NCBI GenBank assembly: GCA_027619415.1
Contig: JAQCFO010000004.1
Location: 31,835 to 95,834, forward strand
Length of the DNA: 64,000 nt
Origin: Bacteroidota bacterium
Lineage (GTDB): Bacteria; Bacteroidota; Bacteroidia; Flavobacteriales; Flavobacteriaceae
Direction: 5' to 3'
Shown: piece after piece, positions 254 to 49,476 of the stretch
Layout: each line of letters begins with the position of its first letter
Position numbering within the stretch: position 1 is the stretch's first letter
Notes under the pieces: generated by a model
Seen by the model: only the letters and a program-made list of their open reading frames with translations
The model's database searches: none
Told to the model about the DNA's origin: nothing
Position numbers and translations under genes: made by a program

Positions 254-1453
254 TTGAAAAAATTCATTATAACTTTAACTTTACTAACTATAATTTCTTG
301 TACAACAAATAAGGTCTTTATAGAGGATATTTCCTTTTTATATGGAGATAATAATGCACAACCTAATTTAGTTTATTCCAATGGTACTTTATCATTATCA
401 TGGATTTCTTCTAAAAAAGAAGATAAAGCTTCCTTATATTTTAGTCAGTTTAAAAAAGGAAAATGGATTAAACCACAAAAAATTGCTTATGGTTCCGACT
501 GGTTTGTTAATTGGGCTGATTTCCCTGCTCATGCAATTAACGAGGATTTAATAATTACAAGCTATTTAAAGAAATCGGCTTCGGGAACATATACTTACGA
601 TGTTATTTTAAATTTACAGAAATTATCTGGAGAGAAAATAAAAGAAGATTTTATATTAAATACTGATGGTGCTAAAGCAGAACATGGTTTTGTAAGTATC
701 ATCCCTAATAATAATAAAGGGTTTTTTGTTACATGGTTAGATGGAAGAAATACTGTAGAAAAGAAACTAGATGGACATCACAAACCAATGACAATTCGTT
801 TTGCAGAAATTACTAATACTGGAGATGTTATAAATGAAAGCGAACTCGATACAGCAGTTTGTGATTGTTGTCAGACATCAATAGCGATGACTAATAATGG
901 ACCTATAATTGTTTATAGGGATAGAAGTGAGAAAGAGGTAAGAGACATTTATACTATCAGAAATATAAATGGAGTTTGGGAAGAACCTAATCTGTTACAT
1001 AATGATGGATGGATAATAAATGGATGTCCTGTAAATGGTCCTAAAGTTGCTGTGAATTCTACAAACCTTGCTGTTGCTTGGTTTACGGTAGTTAATAATA
1101 ATCCTTTAGTGAATGTTTCATTTTCAAAAAATAATGGTGATTCTTTTGGTACTCCATTCAAACTTAATGACCATGGTGCAATAGGTAGAGTAGATGTTGC
1201 ATTTTTAAATAATGAGGAAGTAATAGTTAGTTACATGGAAGTTGATGATATTGGAACGTATTTGAGAATAAAAAAGGTTTCAGTTAATGGAAAAATTTCT
1301 AAGCCAATTACGATATCTAAAATTGATGGTGGAAGAAATACAGGAGTTCCTCAGTTGGAAATAATAAATAATGAAATTTTTATTGTTTGGACTATTTCTG
1401 TAGGAGGAATGAATCAGTTGAAATCTATAAAATTTAACTCGAAAAACATCTAG
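254..1453 (+). CDS. Sialidase/BNR-like repeat lipoprotein (probable exo-alpha-sialidase-family beta-propeller)
   Basis: Lipoprotein signal 'MKKFIITLTLLTIISC'; repeated 'SFSKNNGDSFGTPF'-type BNR/Asp-box-like stretches; starts 1 bp after the upstream stop (TTG start). Confidence 0.65.
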   Translation: MKKFIITLTLLTIISCTTNKVFIEDISFLYGDNNAQPNLVYSNGTLSLSWISSKKEDKASLYFSQFKKGKWIKPQKIAYGSDWFVNWADFPAHAINEDLIITSYLKKSASGTYTYDVILNLQKLSGEKIKEDFILNTDGAKAEHGFVSIIPNNNKGFFVTWLDGRNTVEKKLDGHHKPMTIRFAEITNTGDVINESELDTAVCDCCQTSIAMTNNGPIIVYRDRSEKEVRDIYTIRNINGVWEEPNLLHNDGWIINGCPVNGPKVAVNSTNLAVAWFTVVNNNPLVNVSFSKNNGDSFGTPFKLNDHGAIGRVDVAFLNNEEVIVSYMEVDDIGTYLRIKKVSVNGKISKPITISKIDGGRNTGVPQLEIINNEIFIVWTISVGGMNQLKSIKFNSKNI

Positions 1454-1671
1454 AAAACCCTCATTTGTGCACATCAGGTGACACACTTAAGTATATTTTG
1501 TATGTAGACATGGTAGATGGTAAACAAACACCAGTGGCTGCTTTATCTAACTTAACAACTAAAACAGCAAGTGTAGCTCTAGAGCCTGCAACCACTTATT
1601 ACTGGAGAGTGAAGACGTCAGATAGTATAAATTCGAGTTACTCAATTGTGTAGTCGTTTAAAACACAGTAA
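1453..1671 (+). pseudogene. 3' remnant of a fibronectin-III-like surface protein gene with an in-frame TAG
   Basis: '..SGDTLKYILYVDMVDGKQTPVAALSNLTTKTASVALEPATTYYWRVKTSDSINSSYSIV*SFKTQ*'; Fn3-like ending in which the expected W (SxVWSFxT) is replaced by TAG at 1651-1653; no start or N-terminus. Confidence 0.6.
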
Positions 1672-1678
1672 GGGTTAG

Positions 1679-1782
1679 TATTATACGTACTTATACAAAC
1701 ATCTCCCGTCAAAAGAAAACCGATATTATTTAAGTAGGGTAGCACCAATTAAAAATTACTATTGAGATTTTTTTGGTTTTTA
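1679..1782. repeat. 104-bp repeat, copy 1
   Basis: Ungapped by-eye alignment to 4747-4850, 92/104 identical. Confidence 0.85.
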
Positions 1783-1877
1783 CTTTTAAATCAGCAACTT
1801 CAATTAAGTAGGTTAAACATACAGTTATCTATAAAGGGAGAAGATTAATACGGTCTAGATAATTGTTAAATTTAAGC

Positions 1878-3086
1878 ATGAAAAAAATTATATTTTTATT
1901 TTCTTTACTTATTATAGGGTGCAGTAAAGACTCAGATGATATTTCCCCAAATATTATAAACACAATTTCCCCTGAACCATTTATTATATACCCATCTTCT
2001 TTTCAAACTCACGAATTTAATCGTGGTTATTTTAGTCTTCATACTACCAAACTTCCCGATAACGGAAAATTAATTGTTGGGGTAACATATGTTGATTTTA
2101 ATAATGATGGATATGCTGATATAATTGGTAAGGATGAGAATAATCCTACCGTAGTAAAATTATATACAAATGATGGTAATAACAACTATACGGTTTCTGA
2201 GTTGATTACCGAAAATAAACAAAATGGTATGCGTAGGGGTATGAGAAAAATCATAACCGCGGATATTAATAATGATGGAAAATTGGATATACTTACGGGG
2301 TTAGCTCCTGATGTGGAGAATGACCCAAAGGGGTTATTTATTTTACAAAATAAAGGAAACATATTTTACGAACATACTATATTAAGTGGGGATGATGATT
2401 GGATGCATACTATTTCTACAGCAGATATCAATAACGATGGATATGTAGATGTAGTTCCAGGAGGAAAAAACTTTGTTTTGATGGGTAATGGTGATTTTAC
2501 ATTTGAAAAAAAATATTTACCAAATTATATAAGAAGAGGTACAGCTATAACAGAAGAATTGATTGATTTAAATAACGATGGGTATGTAGATATATTAATT
2601 GGTCATCACTTAGGTATGTGGGACAATTGGACTGATGATGAATATAAAAATTCAGTAACAATACATTATGGAACTGGAGATGAAAATTTATTTACCAGAG
2701 GCTATGTGTTAGAATCAAACTACTACGGAACAAATATAACATTAGATTTTTCAGTAATTGATTTTGATGGTGATGGTGATTACGATGTATTTGTTAATAG
2801 TAATTTTGATTATGGTTCAAAATATGTTATTCAATATCACGAAAATGTTGGTTATATGAATTTTGTAAATAAATCAAATGATGTGTTTGAAAATGAATGT
2901 AATCTTGTAATAAATCATTATGATATCGATTGGATTAAATTTATTGATATGGATGGTACTGGTAAAAAAGAATTGATGATAGAAGGTGCTAATTGGGATA
3001 AAACAAACGCTGAATATAATGAACCAAAATTTAATGGATTCAAATTAAATTCAAATAATAAATTTGAAAGAGTGTTACTAAAATAG
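1878..3086 (+). CDS. FG-GAP/VCBS-repeat lipoprotein
   Basis: Lipoprotein signal 'MKKIIFLFSLLIIGCS'; repeated D-x-N-N-D-G-x-x-D motifs (DFNNDGYAD, DINNDGKLD, DINNDGYVD, DLNNDGYVD, DFDGDGDYD). Confidence 0.85.
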   Translation: MKKIIFLFSLLIIGCSKDSDDISPNIINTISPEPFIIYPSSFQTHEFNRGYFSLHTTKLPDNGKLIVGVTYVDFNNDGYADIIGKDENNPTVVKLYTNDGNNNYTVSELITENKQNGMRRGMRKIITADINNDGKLDILTGLAPDVENDPKGLFILQNKGNIFYEHTILSGDDDWMHTISTADINNDGYVDVVPGGKNFVLMGNGDFTFEKKYLPNYIRRGTAITEELIDLNNDGYVDILIGHHLGMWDNWTDDEYKNSVTIHYGTGDENLFTRGYVLESNYYGTNITLDFSVIDFDGDGDYDVFVNSNFDYGSKYVIQYHENVGYMNFVNKSNDVFENECNLVINHYDIDWIKFIDMDGTGKKELMIEGANWDKTNAEYNEPKFNGFKLNSNNKFERVLLK

Positions 3087-3236
3087 ATGGAACTAAAATT
3101 GTTGCCCAGATAAAAGAAAACTTTTTATAATTACAATATTTAATCCATTACAAACTTAAAGCCAGTTGAGATACATCCCTAATTATTTTTCAAATTTGTA
3201 TATTGTTATAAATATAATATTTAACAAAATACCATT

Positions 3237-4664
3237 ATGAAACTTATTAAGATTTTTATACTTATTACTTTATTCATTTCATGTTCAAATGAAGTTGTAG
3301 AAAATAATTCAATCTCATTTTCTGAAAAAAACTATGATGAAGCATTTCAATTAATTGAATATTGGCTTAATGCACAAAAAGATTACGAAAACTTAACAGG
3401 CTTAACTGCTATGGTAGGAAGTGAGGATGGAATTATTTGGTCAGAGGCTTTTGGAATGGCAAATGAAAAGGACTTGATGAGTGTTGAAAATACTTTTAGC
3501 ATTTGTTCAATTTCTAAATTATTTACATCCATTGCAATAATGAAACTTATAGAAGAGAAAAAAATTGCTTTAAATGACCCAATAAATAAACTATTGCCGT
3601 GGTTTGATTTGAAACAACAGTTTGAAAACTCTCCGCCATTAACAATTAAATCAATATTAACTCATTCCTCAGGACTTCCTAGAGAATCAAATCACCCATA
3701 CTGGTCATGGCCTGATTTCCTATTTCCTTCAAAAGAAGATGTGGTAAAAGAGCTTAAAAATCAAGAAATGTTATATCCAAGTTCCAAATATTATCAATAC
3801 AGTAATTTAGGGTTATCTCTTTTAGGCTATGTTGTTGAAGAAGTGTCTGGAGAATCTTTTGAAGATTATATAGATAAAAATATTTTAGAACCTTTAAAGA
3901 TGAAAGACACGAAAACTTATATGTCTAAAGAAGATTATGGAGAGGTGTTATCTATAGGGTATTCTTCAATTAAAAGAGATAGAAATAGAGATAAAGTAAA
4001 TTTTTTCAATGCTGATGGAATAGCGGCAGCAGCAGGTTTTACTTCAAATGTAGAGGATCTTGCAAAATTTGCAGCTTGGCAGATGAAATTATTAAATTCC
4101 TTAGAAAAAAATATTATATCATCAGAAACATTAAAGGAAATGCACAAGGTGAGTTGGGACGATGAGTTGAGTTCCGTAACAAGAGGGTTAGGTTTTGGTG
4201 TCTATGACTTTGGCGGAGAAAGTTGGGTAGGCCATGGAGGCTCTTGTCCAGGTTACAGATCTCAATTATATCTAAACCCAAAAATGGGAATTTCATACTC
4301 TGTAATGATCAATTCAAGTGGAACTAACCCTGAAAAATATATTCAAGGAATTCATCAAATTTTAAAAAAAGTAGCATTAAAGAAAGAAATACTTTCAAAT
4401 AAGTTCAAGGAAATTGAAGGGATTTATATAGCTCAACCTTGGGGAAGTGAAACTTATATTCAGTCATGGGGAAATCATTTAGCTCTTTTAAAAGTGCCAT
4501 CAAATTCTCCTGACTTAACTTTATATAAAAAAATAGAAATAGACATTTTTAAAAGAATTTTGAAAAATGGTGAATTGGGGGAAAAATTAGAAATATTAAG
4601 AGATGAAAAAGAGGGTGTTATTGGATTTAAATCACATCAAAATATATATTCTAAATCAAAATAA
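3237..4664 (+). CDS. Serine hydrolase, beta-lactamase (class C/PBP4*-like) family lipoprotein
   Basis: S-x-x-K motif 'SISK', Y-S-N motif 'QYSNLG', 'GHGG' motif; lipoprotein signal '..LFISCS'. Confidence 0.85.
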   Translation: MKLIKIFILITLFISCSNEVVENNSISFSEKNYDEAFQLIEYWLNAQKDYENLTGLTAMVGSEDGIIWSEAFGMANEKDLMSVENTFSICSISKLFTSIAIMKLIEEKKIALNDPINKLLPWFDLKQQFENSPPLTIKSILTHSSGLPRESNHPYWSWPDFLFPSKEDVVKELKNQEMLYPSSKYYQYSNLGLSLLGYVVEEVSGESFEDYIDKNILEPLKMKDTKTYMSKEDYGEVLSIGYSSIKRDRNRDKVNFFNADGIAAAAGFTSNVEDLAKFAAWQMKLLNSLEKNIISSETLKEMHKVSWDDELSSVTRGLGFGVYDFGGESWVGHGGSCPGYRSQLYLNPKMGISYSVMINSSGTNPEKYIQGIHQILKKVALKKEILSNKFKEIEGIYIAQPWGSETYIQSWGNHLALLKVPSNSPDLTLYKKIEIDIFKRILKNGELGEKLEILRDEKEGVIGFKSHQNIYSKSK

Positions 4665-4746
4665 AAAAGACTTAATATGAAATTCAAACCTATTTTGGTT
4701 TCCTTCGGATTAGATATATCTTCTTCTAAGACACCCTGAACCTCAC

Positions 4747-4850
4747 TATTATACATCATTATACAAACACCTCCCTTCAAAAGAAAACCGATATTATTTG
4801 AGAAGGGTAGGAATAATTAATAATTACTCTTGAGATTTTTTTGGTTTTTA
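4747..4850. repeat. 104-bp repeat, copy 2
   Basis: Ungapped by-eye alignment to 1679-1782; contains CCCTTC...GAAGGG inverted repeat. Confidence 0.85.
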
Positions 4851-4889
4851 GTAATGCTGGCCGTACAATAATCGTACAAGTTTTAAAAA

Positions 4890-4932
4890 GAAAAACCCTA
4901 ATCACTTGTTTATAAAGTAGTTAGGGTTTTAC
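4890..4932 (-). terminator. Rho-independent terminator downstream of tRNA-Ser
   Basis: Inverted repeat AAAACCCTAA...TTAGGGTTTT; on the minus strand it is followed by TTTTTCTTTTT. Confidence 0.7.
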
Positions 4933-4937
4933 TAAGC

Positions 4938-5021
4938 GGAGAAGAAGGGATTCGAACCCCTGGTACCTTGCAGTACGCTAGTTTTCAAGACTAGTGCATT
5001 CGACCACTCTGCCACTTCTCC
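4938..5021 (-). tRNA. tRNA-Ser (anticodon TGA)
   Basis: Minus strand GGAGAAGTGGCAGAGTGGTCGAATGCACTAGTCTTGAAAACTAGCG...GGTTCGAATCCCTTCTTCTCC: 7-bp acceptor stem, CTTGAAA anticodon loop, variable arm, T arm. Confidence 0.95.
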
Positions 5022-5107: not shown

Positions 5108-5878
5108 ATGTTTGAATTTGATCAATCATTATGGGTTTATGCATTATTAATATTCGTAGGTTTTATTGCTGGATTTATGAATACAATGGCAGGAGGAGGT
5201 TCGCTACTAACGCTTCCTTTATTAATTTTTTTAGGATTACCTGCAGCAGTTGCAAATGGAACTAACAGAGTAGCTATACTAATGTCTACTTCATCTGCAA
5301 CTCTTGGTTTTAAGAGCAAGAACGTTTCCACTTATCCATTTAATATTTATTTAGGAATATCAGGTCTTTTTGGTGCTTTGATTGGTGCAAAATTAGCTAT
5401 TGAGATAAATGGTGATTTATTTAATAAAATACTAGCTGTTATTATGATTATAGTTGTTGGTTTAATTGTATTTAAGCCTAAAATTAATCACAATAATCTG
5501 ATTGAAAGATTAACAGGTAAACATCTTTTTATTTCTATTCTTGCATTCTTTTTTATTGGTGTTTACGGAGGCTTTATAAATGCTGGTATTGGTTTTGTAA
5601 TTATGTTGTTTTTACACTATTATAATAGATTAAATTTAGTTAAAGTCAATTCAGCTAAAGTTGTAATTGTTTTAATATATACTATAGGTGCTTTAGTAAC
5701 ATTTGCTTTAGCAGATAAAGTAAATTGGACTTTCGGTTTATTTCTTGCATCAGGTAATTTTATAGGTGGTTGGACATCTAGCAGATGGTCTGTTAAAAAA
5801 GGTGAGAAATCAATTAAAGTATTTTTAATTGTGATGGTGGTCTTAATGTCAATAAAACTTTGGTTTTTTAGTAATTGA
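5108..5878 (+). CDS. TSUP (TauE/SafE) family sulfite exporter-like permease
   Basis: Hydrophobic protein with '[33 protein letters not shown]' motif; TACATTTG (-7-like) directly upstream. Confidence 0.88.
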
Positions 5879-49361: not shown

Positions 49362-49369
49362 TATATTTG
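49362..49369 (+). promoter_or_regulatory. Candidate -7 element of the SRP RNA gene
   Basis: TATATTTG 4 nt before the SRP RNA 5' end; no clear -33 TTG. Confidence 0.5.
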
Positions 49370-49373
49370 TAAT

Positions 49374-49469
49374 GGGCAAGTCTTACACAACCAGCTCCTG
49401 TTTAATCCCCCAGGGTGGGAACACAGCAAGGGTCGATGGTTGTAGCAGTGTGATGTAAGTAGCTTGCCC
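49374..49469 (+). ncRNA. ffs: Bacterial small-type SRP RNA (4.5S-like)
   Basis: GGGCAAG...CTTGCCC closing helix, 'GGTGGGAACACAGCAAGG' conserved tip, followed by a T-run. Confidence 0.9.
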
Positions 49470-49476
49470 TTTTTTT

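Follow-up and report, generated by a model that had tools for sequence, protein, structure and literature searches.

Among uncultured, small-genome marine Flavobacteriaceae, genes for secreted enzymes and polysaccharide use vary greatly, and the route by which they are exchanged is largely obscure. Here we ask what two 104-bp repeats signify on either side of a two-gene segment beside a tRNA-Ser gene, in a 64,000-nucleotide stretch of a Flavobacteriaceae genome (hereafter the window). A preliminary description of this DNA had offered three options: a cassette boundary, a recombination remnant or a repeated 3′ regulatory element. We compared the repeat (the 104-mer) within the window's own genome (G000, a 1.66-Mb draft in 61 contigs), across the 22 genomes of the genus and in other members of the family.

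A direct repeat pair brackets two cargo genes beside tRNA-Ser

The two repeats align without gaps at 92 of 104 positions (blastn, E = 1.6e-34 within the window), exactly as first counted. The next-best window match to either copy has E = 0.017 (blastn), and chance is excluded as the source of the pair. The copies are 88% identical and share one orientation. The ORF map agrees with the earlier claim that both are noncoding, and the segment that they enclose contains, as described, only an FG-GAP lipoprotein and a PF00144 serine hydrolase near tRNA-Ser (Table 1). Homology outside the 104 bp differs between the copies: upstream of copy 1 lies the remnant of a fibronectin-III gene, and downstream of copy 2 come a direct repeat, then a terminator that runs into the tRNA.

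Table 1. Features of the repeat-bracketed segment and its surroundings, in window coordinates.
Feature	Position	Strand	Evidence or remark
Secreted BNR-like lipoprotein gene, cargo of the adjoining cassette	254..1453	+	no Pfam match
3′ remnant of a fibronectin-III-type gene, TTYYWRVKTSDSINSSYSIV	1465..1670 (approximate)	+	same remnant abuts the single repeat copy of G241
Repeat copy 1, 104 bp	1679..1782	+	blastn within window and own genome
Leader R3, recurrent, links copy 1 to the cargo start codon	1783..1877	+	sequence comparison
FG-GAP repeat lipoprotein	1878..3086	+	Pfam PF13517, E 1e-24
Serine hydrolase, beta-lactamase fold	3237..4664	+	PF00144
Repeat copy 2, 104 bp, probable tRNA-proximal end module	4747..4850	+	blastn; position relative to tRNA
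Direct repeat of type A, CCGTACAATAATCGTACAA, a 7-mer twice with an 11-bp period; probably an arm-type integrase site	4861..4879	+	pattern scan
Terminator hairpin AAAACCCTAA...TTAGGGTTTT, separating the direct repeat from the tRNA	4892..4930	.	sequence
tRNA-Ser(UGA), anchor and probable attachment site	4936..5021	-	tRNA search
TauE/SafE permease, where the conserved backbone begins	5108..5878	+	comparison with relatives, domain search

The cargo genes differ in how widely they occur. Among the 22 genomes of the genus, the FG-GAP gene is present in the window's genome only. At least 7 relatives carry serine-hydrolase DNA, on other contigs (G315 C4, G303 C30, G319 C37, G309 C51, G305 C38, G004 C7 and G241 C1), and DNA matching the BNR-like gene is found at other loci (G241 C1, G305 C18 and G318 C50). 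Pieces of leader R3 are matched in many genomes of the genus (query 1584-1696); on inspection, this leader holds no direct repeat, terminator or tRNA fragment. On the other side of the tRNA, the backbone continues after TauE/SafE with ribBA and then an LptG-like permease.

The 104-mer is dispersed across the genus and forms arrays

The pair itself stands, but the picture of just two copies does not: the window's genome carries five near-full copies plus several fragments, and a 29-bp remnant lies about 450 bp left of the window. At a threshold of E <= 1e-6, we identified 58 matches in 15 of the 22 genomes of the genus, with a maximum of 18 (G241); the genomes are drafts, and contigs often end in or beside a 104-mer. 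The exact 20-mer AAAGAAAACCGATATTATTT was also found in marine Flavobacteriaceae and Cryomorphaceae MAGs, several times in some. Matches of this 20-mer in a Planctomycete and in Desulfamplus fall inside coding sequence and were rejected as chance.

Arrays are most extensive in G241, with about ten copies on C1:1-50 kb and four on C4:145-156 kb. The array copies keep a single orientation and are spaced 1-10 kb apart, and between them lie one to several genes, mostly for secreted proteins or lipoproteins and some antisense. A decayed copy of the integrase found at the mnmE site of G004 borders a 104-mer array in G241 (L059:5148-6353).

Unrelated cargo genes open with near-identical signal-peptide DNA (ATGAAAAAACTAATTCTACTATTACTGTTTATTCCACTTGTTTCTTTT), and a few leaders are also common to them. 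Near-identical signal-peptide DNA MKKLILLLLFIPLVSFGQ recurs at L024:2060, L024:2745, L059:14536 (-), L061:11633, L065:18255 (-) and L067:1061 and 1435 (-). The signal-peptide block looks as if it had been shuffled between unrelated secreted-protein genes. Leader R4 was considered as a general left end of cassettes and rejected in that role; it stays a lead only, because an exact tRNA/tmRNA fragment precedes just one of its 13 instances.

The 104-mer has a fixed position relative to tRNA and tmRNA 3′ ends

The preliminary description had proposed looking for other copies at cargo-gene junctions or tRNA genes, and they do sit there, tmRNA included. We collected 54 distinct copies, 47 of which have enough flank to judge. 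An antisense tRNA or tmRNA 3′ end lies 40-126 bp downstream in 20 of these 47, at exactly 87 bp in 10, and window copy 2 likewise abuts such an end; on the upstream side, a tRNA or tmRNA 3′ end was found for none of the 47. Copies outside arrays adjoin tRNA-Ser(UGA), Ser(GCU), Leu(CAA), Ala(GGC), Asn(GUU) or tmRNA. The order downstream of the 104-mer is a short direct repeat, a terminator hairpin and the tRNA 3′ end, and truncated 104-mers begin at variable points.

Within arrays, exact 13-15-nt fragments of tRNA or tmRNA 3′ ends follow some copies, and many array copies have no such scar. These short scars include GCGGAGAGACGGG at L043, which is the 3′ end of Ser-GCU, GCGGAGAAAGAGG at L057, from Ser-UGA, and GGTGGAGTCGGAGGG at L164, from tmRNA; L092, where direct repeat A accompanies a 104-mer that has diverged, retains 47 nt of tRNA-Ala. 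Each scar occupies the expected position of the tRNA and starts in its last few bases. The short fragments score 13-15 and L092 scores 38, against a best score of 12 among 210 shuffled sequences. The short scars thus point to accretion of the arrays by serial integration at tRNA 3′ ends.

Direct repeats and a terminator accompany the 104-mer

The direct repeats that follow the 104-mer are of two types. Type A (CCGTACAATAATCGTACAA) consists of the 7-mer CGTACAA twice (CGTACAA-taat-CGTACAA) and has an 11-bp period; type B (GGCAACGATTCAGGCAACC) has a period of 12. With up to one mismatch, type A has 21 sites in 301 Flavobacteriaceae genomes, in which the reversed-pattern control has 0. Eighteen of the 21 sites are at intact tRNA or tmRNA genes, L092 is at the tRNA-Ala fragment and L097 lies within a G241 array, beside an apparently degraded tRNA-Ser end. 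A further site (L091, in G071) is about 15 bp upstream of the start codon of a tyrosine integrase, and in G137 a type-B repeat is 28 bp upstream of another integrase's start. Integrases of other family members also have short repeats immediately before their start codons. This placement before integrase start codons suggests that the direct repeats are probably arm-type integrase sites. The 104-mer pairs with different arm repeats, which argues that it is not itself an integrase-specific site. In other genomes, the terminator sequence of the window also follows Ser-GCU tRNAs and tmRNA; since it is common to different tRNA genes, it travels with the element.

Some occurrences of these repeats stand apart. 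Type A and the terminator occur without a recognisable 104-mer at tRNA-Met in G037 (L082), tmRNA in G224 (L090) and tRNA-Phe in G297 (L093). The type-A repeat and integrase of G071 (L091, L101; G071:C1:497867) belong to a phage-like region, near which no tRNA was found. A direct-repeat B match in G087 is within SulP coding sequence and was discarded as chance.

An integrase-bearing island occupies the orthologous tRNA-Ser locus in a related genus

In G137, which belongs to a different genus of the same family, the orthologous tRNA-Ser(UGA)/ribBA locus holds a complete island of 16.6 kb. The island begins with a tRNA-Ser 3′ fragment, direct repeat B, a 411-aa integrase (PF00589, E 7e-16; PF13102, E 1e-12; weak Arm-DNA-bind_5) and an excisionase (TIGR01764, E 2e-9; HTH_17). 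About 14 kb of other genes follow, and then a second direct repeat B with two differences from the first, a terminator and the intact tRNA-Ser. The 15-mer TTGCGGAGGAAGAGG is present at both island ends, 16.6 kb apart, and 13 of its nucleotides are the tRNA 3′ terminus. Near the tRNA-proximal end, the motifs ACAAACACC and TTTTTTGGGTTTTTA resemble the outer portions of the 104-mer and keep their order; because a 104-mer HMM gives no match to this end and only degenerate motifs are seen, their homology to the 104-mer is tentative.

Recognisable 104-mers (E about 1e-7 to 1e-9) do occur in G190 and G294. A terminator comes next there, then a tRNA 3′ fragment, further direct repeats and an integrase. 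Such junctions read as the end of one element set against the integrase end of the next. At L043, the Ser-GCU scar and then a type-B arm repeat lie 50 to 320 bp downstream of the 104-mer at 4556-4454 (-), and this arm repeat immediately precedes the start codon of a lipoprotein gene, the place taken by the integrase in G137. This one case suggests an integrase-less element with both arms.

Excisionase-type genes are followed in places by small proteins with an HTHSLI- or HIHLMF-like motif (L145:15885-16247 (-) and L078:413-787 (-)), which by eye resemble rolling-circle-type initiators and have no convincing family match.

The tRNA-Ser locus varies among relatives and includes an empty site

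The TauE-ribBA backbone is kept in most genomes of the genus, and in many relatives similarity to the window ends exactly at 4936, the tRNA 3′ terminus. For G241, G310, G315, G316 and G319, similarity extends further, across the end module in part or in full, before it ends. Content beyond the tRNA differs by relative and includes SusC/D and sulfatase-like clusters, oxidoreductases, peptidases and others.

A relative with the segment missing and one repeat copy left, for which the preliminary description had suggested a search, was found in G241. Its locus shares the fibronectin-III remnant, which is followed by one 104-mer only, direct repeat A, the terminator, tRNA-Ser and TauE, and the 3-kb FG-GAP/serine-hydrolase segment is absent. 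The earlier picture of clean excision is half right: the empty single-copy site exists, but the left junction of the segment carries no attachment-site scar. The distal-end tRNA 3′ fragment absent from this junction is present after other copies and in G137.

The tRNA-Ser(UGA) gene itself has two alleles, which differ in the anticodon stem, the variable arm and acceptor position 7. The variant allele occurs in G000/G241/G318, G315 and G316, and the nearest TauE relatives of G315 and G316 have the standard form, so that allele distribution is incongruent with TauE similarity (window 4936-5021; orthologues L127-L140, L118 and L120). Incongruent alleles and shared signal-peptide and leader DNA would fit frequent exchange at this locus.

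The genus shows no integrase linked to the 104-mer

No integrase linked to a full 104-mer was found in the 22 draft genomes of the genus. The window's genome has two recombinases, both Xer-sized, and the genus as a whole has a handful of tyrosine recombinases beyond the two Xer-sized ones of most genomes. None of the spare integrases examined is near a 104-mer or has direct repeat A or B, and an integrase within the element was seen only in G137. With no linked integrase in the genus, the cassettes would be either fossils or served by an integrase supplied in trans. In G004, an integrase accompanied by an HTH gene sits at the 3′ end of mnmE (L222:3299-4794).

IMG/VR scans for the exact core (20-mer), direct-repeat A, the gapped core and the integrase gave no match, and IMG/VR matches to the direct-repeat B and ATACAAACACCTCCC patterns are chance ones without a 104-mer. 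A viral origin of the 104-mer was dropped after these scans yielded no genuine match. In the phage collection searched, similarity was to tRNA-Ser only.

The 104-mer as a probable end module of tRNA-integrating islands

The fixed tRNA side and the complete G137 island indicate that, in islands integrated at tRNA genes, the 104-mer marks the end nearest the tRNA. We hold with good confidence that it is the tRNA-proximal (P′-side) end module of islands that carry cargo and insert at tRNA and tmRNA 3′ ends. The element runs in the order cargo, 104-mer, arm-type direct-repeat pair, terminator and tRNA 3′ end. Two of the initial options gain support in this way: the cassette boundary, more specifically as one end of tRNA-integrating islands in arrays, and the recombination remnant. 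A tyrosine integrase would recombine the ~13-nt tRNA 3′ core of the element with a chromosomal tRNA. Later insertions at the same tRNA would push older cassettes outward and produce arrays with 104-mers as internal boundaries; arms would then be lost, and cassettes shuffled, through decay and homologous recombination between repeats. On this reading, the current tRNA-proximal end in the window would be copy 2 and the newest cargo the FG-GAP/serine-hydrolase segment, and copy 1 would be the end module of the previous cassette, with its direct repeat, terminator and tRNA core gone. Because its left junction lacks a tRNA scar, the segment may have arrived by homologous recombination; either the insertion was no simple site-specific event or the scar has since been lost. 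Within the element, the 104-mer could possibly serve as a cis signal for excision, replication or packaging.

Ordinary homologous recombination could also account for this event by itself: exchange between dispersed 104-mers or shared blocks would have brought in the window segment, with the repeat as a seed and not a site-specific boundary. We give this slightly less than an even chance, on the strength of the scarless left junction (1783-1877), the identity of the two copies over 104 bp, the leader and signal-peptide DNA common to cargo genes, the serine hydrolase at other loci in relatives and the incongruent tRNA-Ser alleles, which are expected from allele replacement. Yet fixed tRNA distances, tRNA-fragment scars and an integrase-bearing island are left unexplained, and we regard homologous recombination as a mechanism layered onto island integration at tRNA genes, not a substitute for it.

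A role of the 104-mer as a repeated 3′ regulatory element or transcription terminator of cargo genes seems very unlikely, even though a cargo stop codon usually precedes it and its end is a T-rich tract. Its folding is at shuffle level on both strands (z-scores -0.7 to +1.4, RNA parameters) and an Rfam search gave no match. The CCCTTC/GAAGGG hairpin of the preliminary description proved not to be conserved as a structure: 84% of stem cells pair over the 41 copies compared, and one inner stem pair is C.A in 13 copies, with 4 compensated. Shuffle-level folding, the lack of an Rfam match and a stem that is not kept exclude a structured RNA or riboregulator. Several copies follow antisense genes, some have a promoter-like leader right after them and a separate terminator hairpin already precedes the tRNA, all of which leaves the regulatory option unsupported. 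A MITE-like or REP-like dispersed repeat that inserts near tRNA genes by coincidence would also be multi-copy, intergenic, short and dispersed, but we consider this highly improbable: the 104-mer ends (TATTATAC and GGTTTTTA) are not the inverted repeats of a MITE or insertion sequence, orientation and distance to the tRNA are fixed, truncations start variably, and the direct repeat, terminator and tRNA fragments accompany the 104-mer.

Comparison with known tRNA-targeted elements and cassettes

The class is a known one, that of tRNA-targeted, tycheposon-like islands; what is new is the conserved end module across arm types, the absence of linked integrases and the cassette arrays. A 10-kb tRNA-targeted island at tRNA-Arg of Riemerella anatipestifer has a Bacteroidota tyrosine integrase (PMC6764341). 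The G137 island resembles this type in its tRNA 3′ insertion, its integrase with SAM-like and catalytic domains, its excisionase and its tRNA-derived end repeats. The genus of the window differs in having no linked integrase, long same-orientation arrays and, inside the tRNA-proximal arm, a 104-bp module that recurs across different arm repeats and tRNA targets. Tycheposons of Prochlorococcus and Methylophilaceae (PMC10872708) are similarly small cargo islands of streamlined marine bacteria with a tRNA anchor and variable metabolic cargo; compared on recombinase, tRNA border and cargo, they carry a tyrosine recombinase, whereas none is linked here.

Like integron attC cassettes, the short cargo units are arrayed in one orientation, and each has a related ~100-bp repeat at its end. 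Unlike integrons, they are anchored at tRNAs and their scars are tRNA fragments. With RNA parameters, neither strand of the 104-mer folds better than shuffles. No integron integrase was seen beside the arrays examined, where the assemblies break. Integrase-less mobilizable or hitcher elements (PMC11389934) likewise have element ends without their own integrase, which suggests help in trans, but no helper was found for the present cassettes.

Integrase-less, trans-mobilised cassettes may stack at tRNA and tmRNA genes with the 104-mer as their common cis signal, in an integron-like but tRNA-anchored form of exchange; we offer this tentatively, as a somewhat unlikely extension. If true, one end module would work with different integrase arm sites and target tRNAs in streamlined marine Flavobacteriaceae. 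A literature search, with most subscription journals outside its reach, found no publication that describes the 104-mer module. The 104-mers would mark where streamlined genomes of uncultured ocean bacteria swap metabolic genes in and out, and they offer a sequence tag with which cassettes, arrays and insertion sites can be found directly in metagenomes. Trans-mobilised, tRNA-anchored gene gain without a linked integrase, comparable to a proposal for Prochlorococcus tycheposons, becomes testable in this way.

Elsewhere in the window, positions 49367-49473 correspond to a small SRP RNA of the Bacteroidales type (Rfam RF04183).
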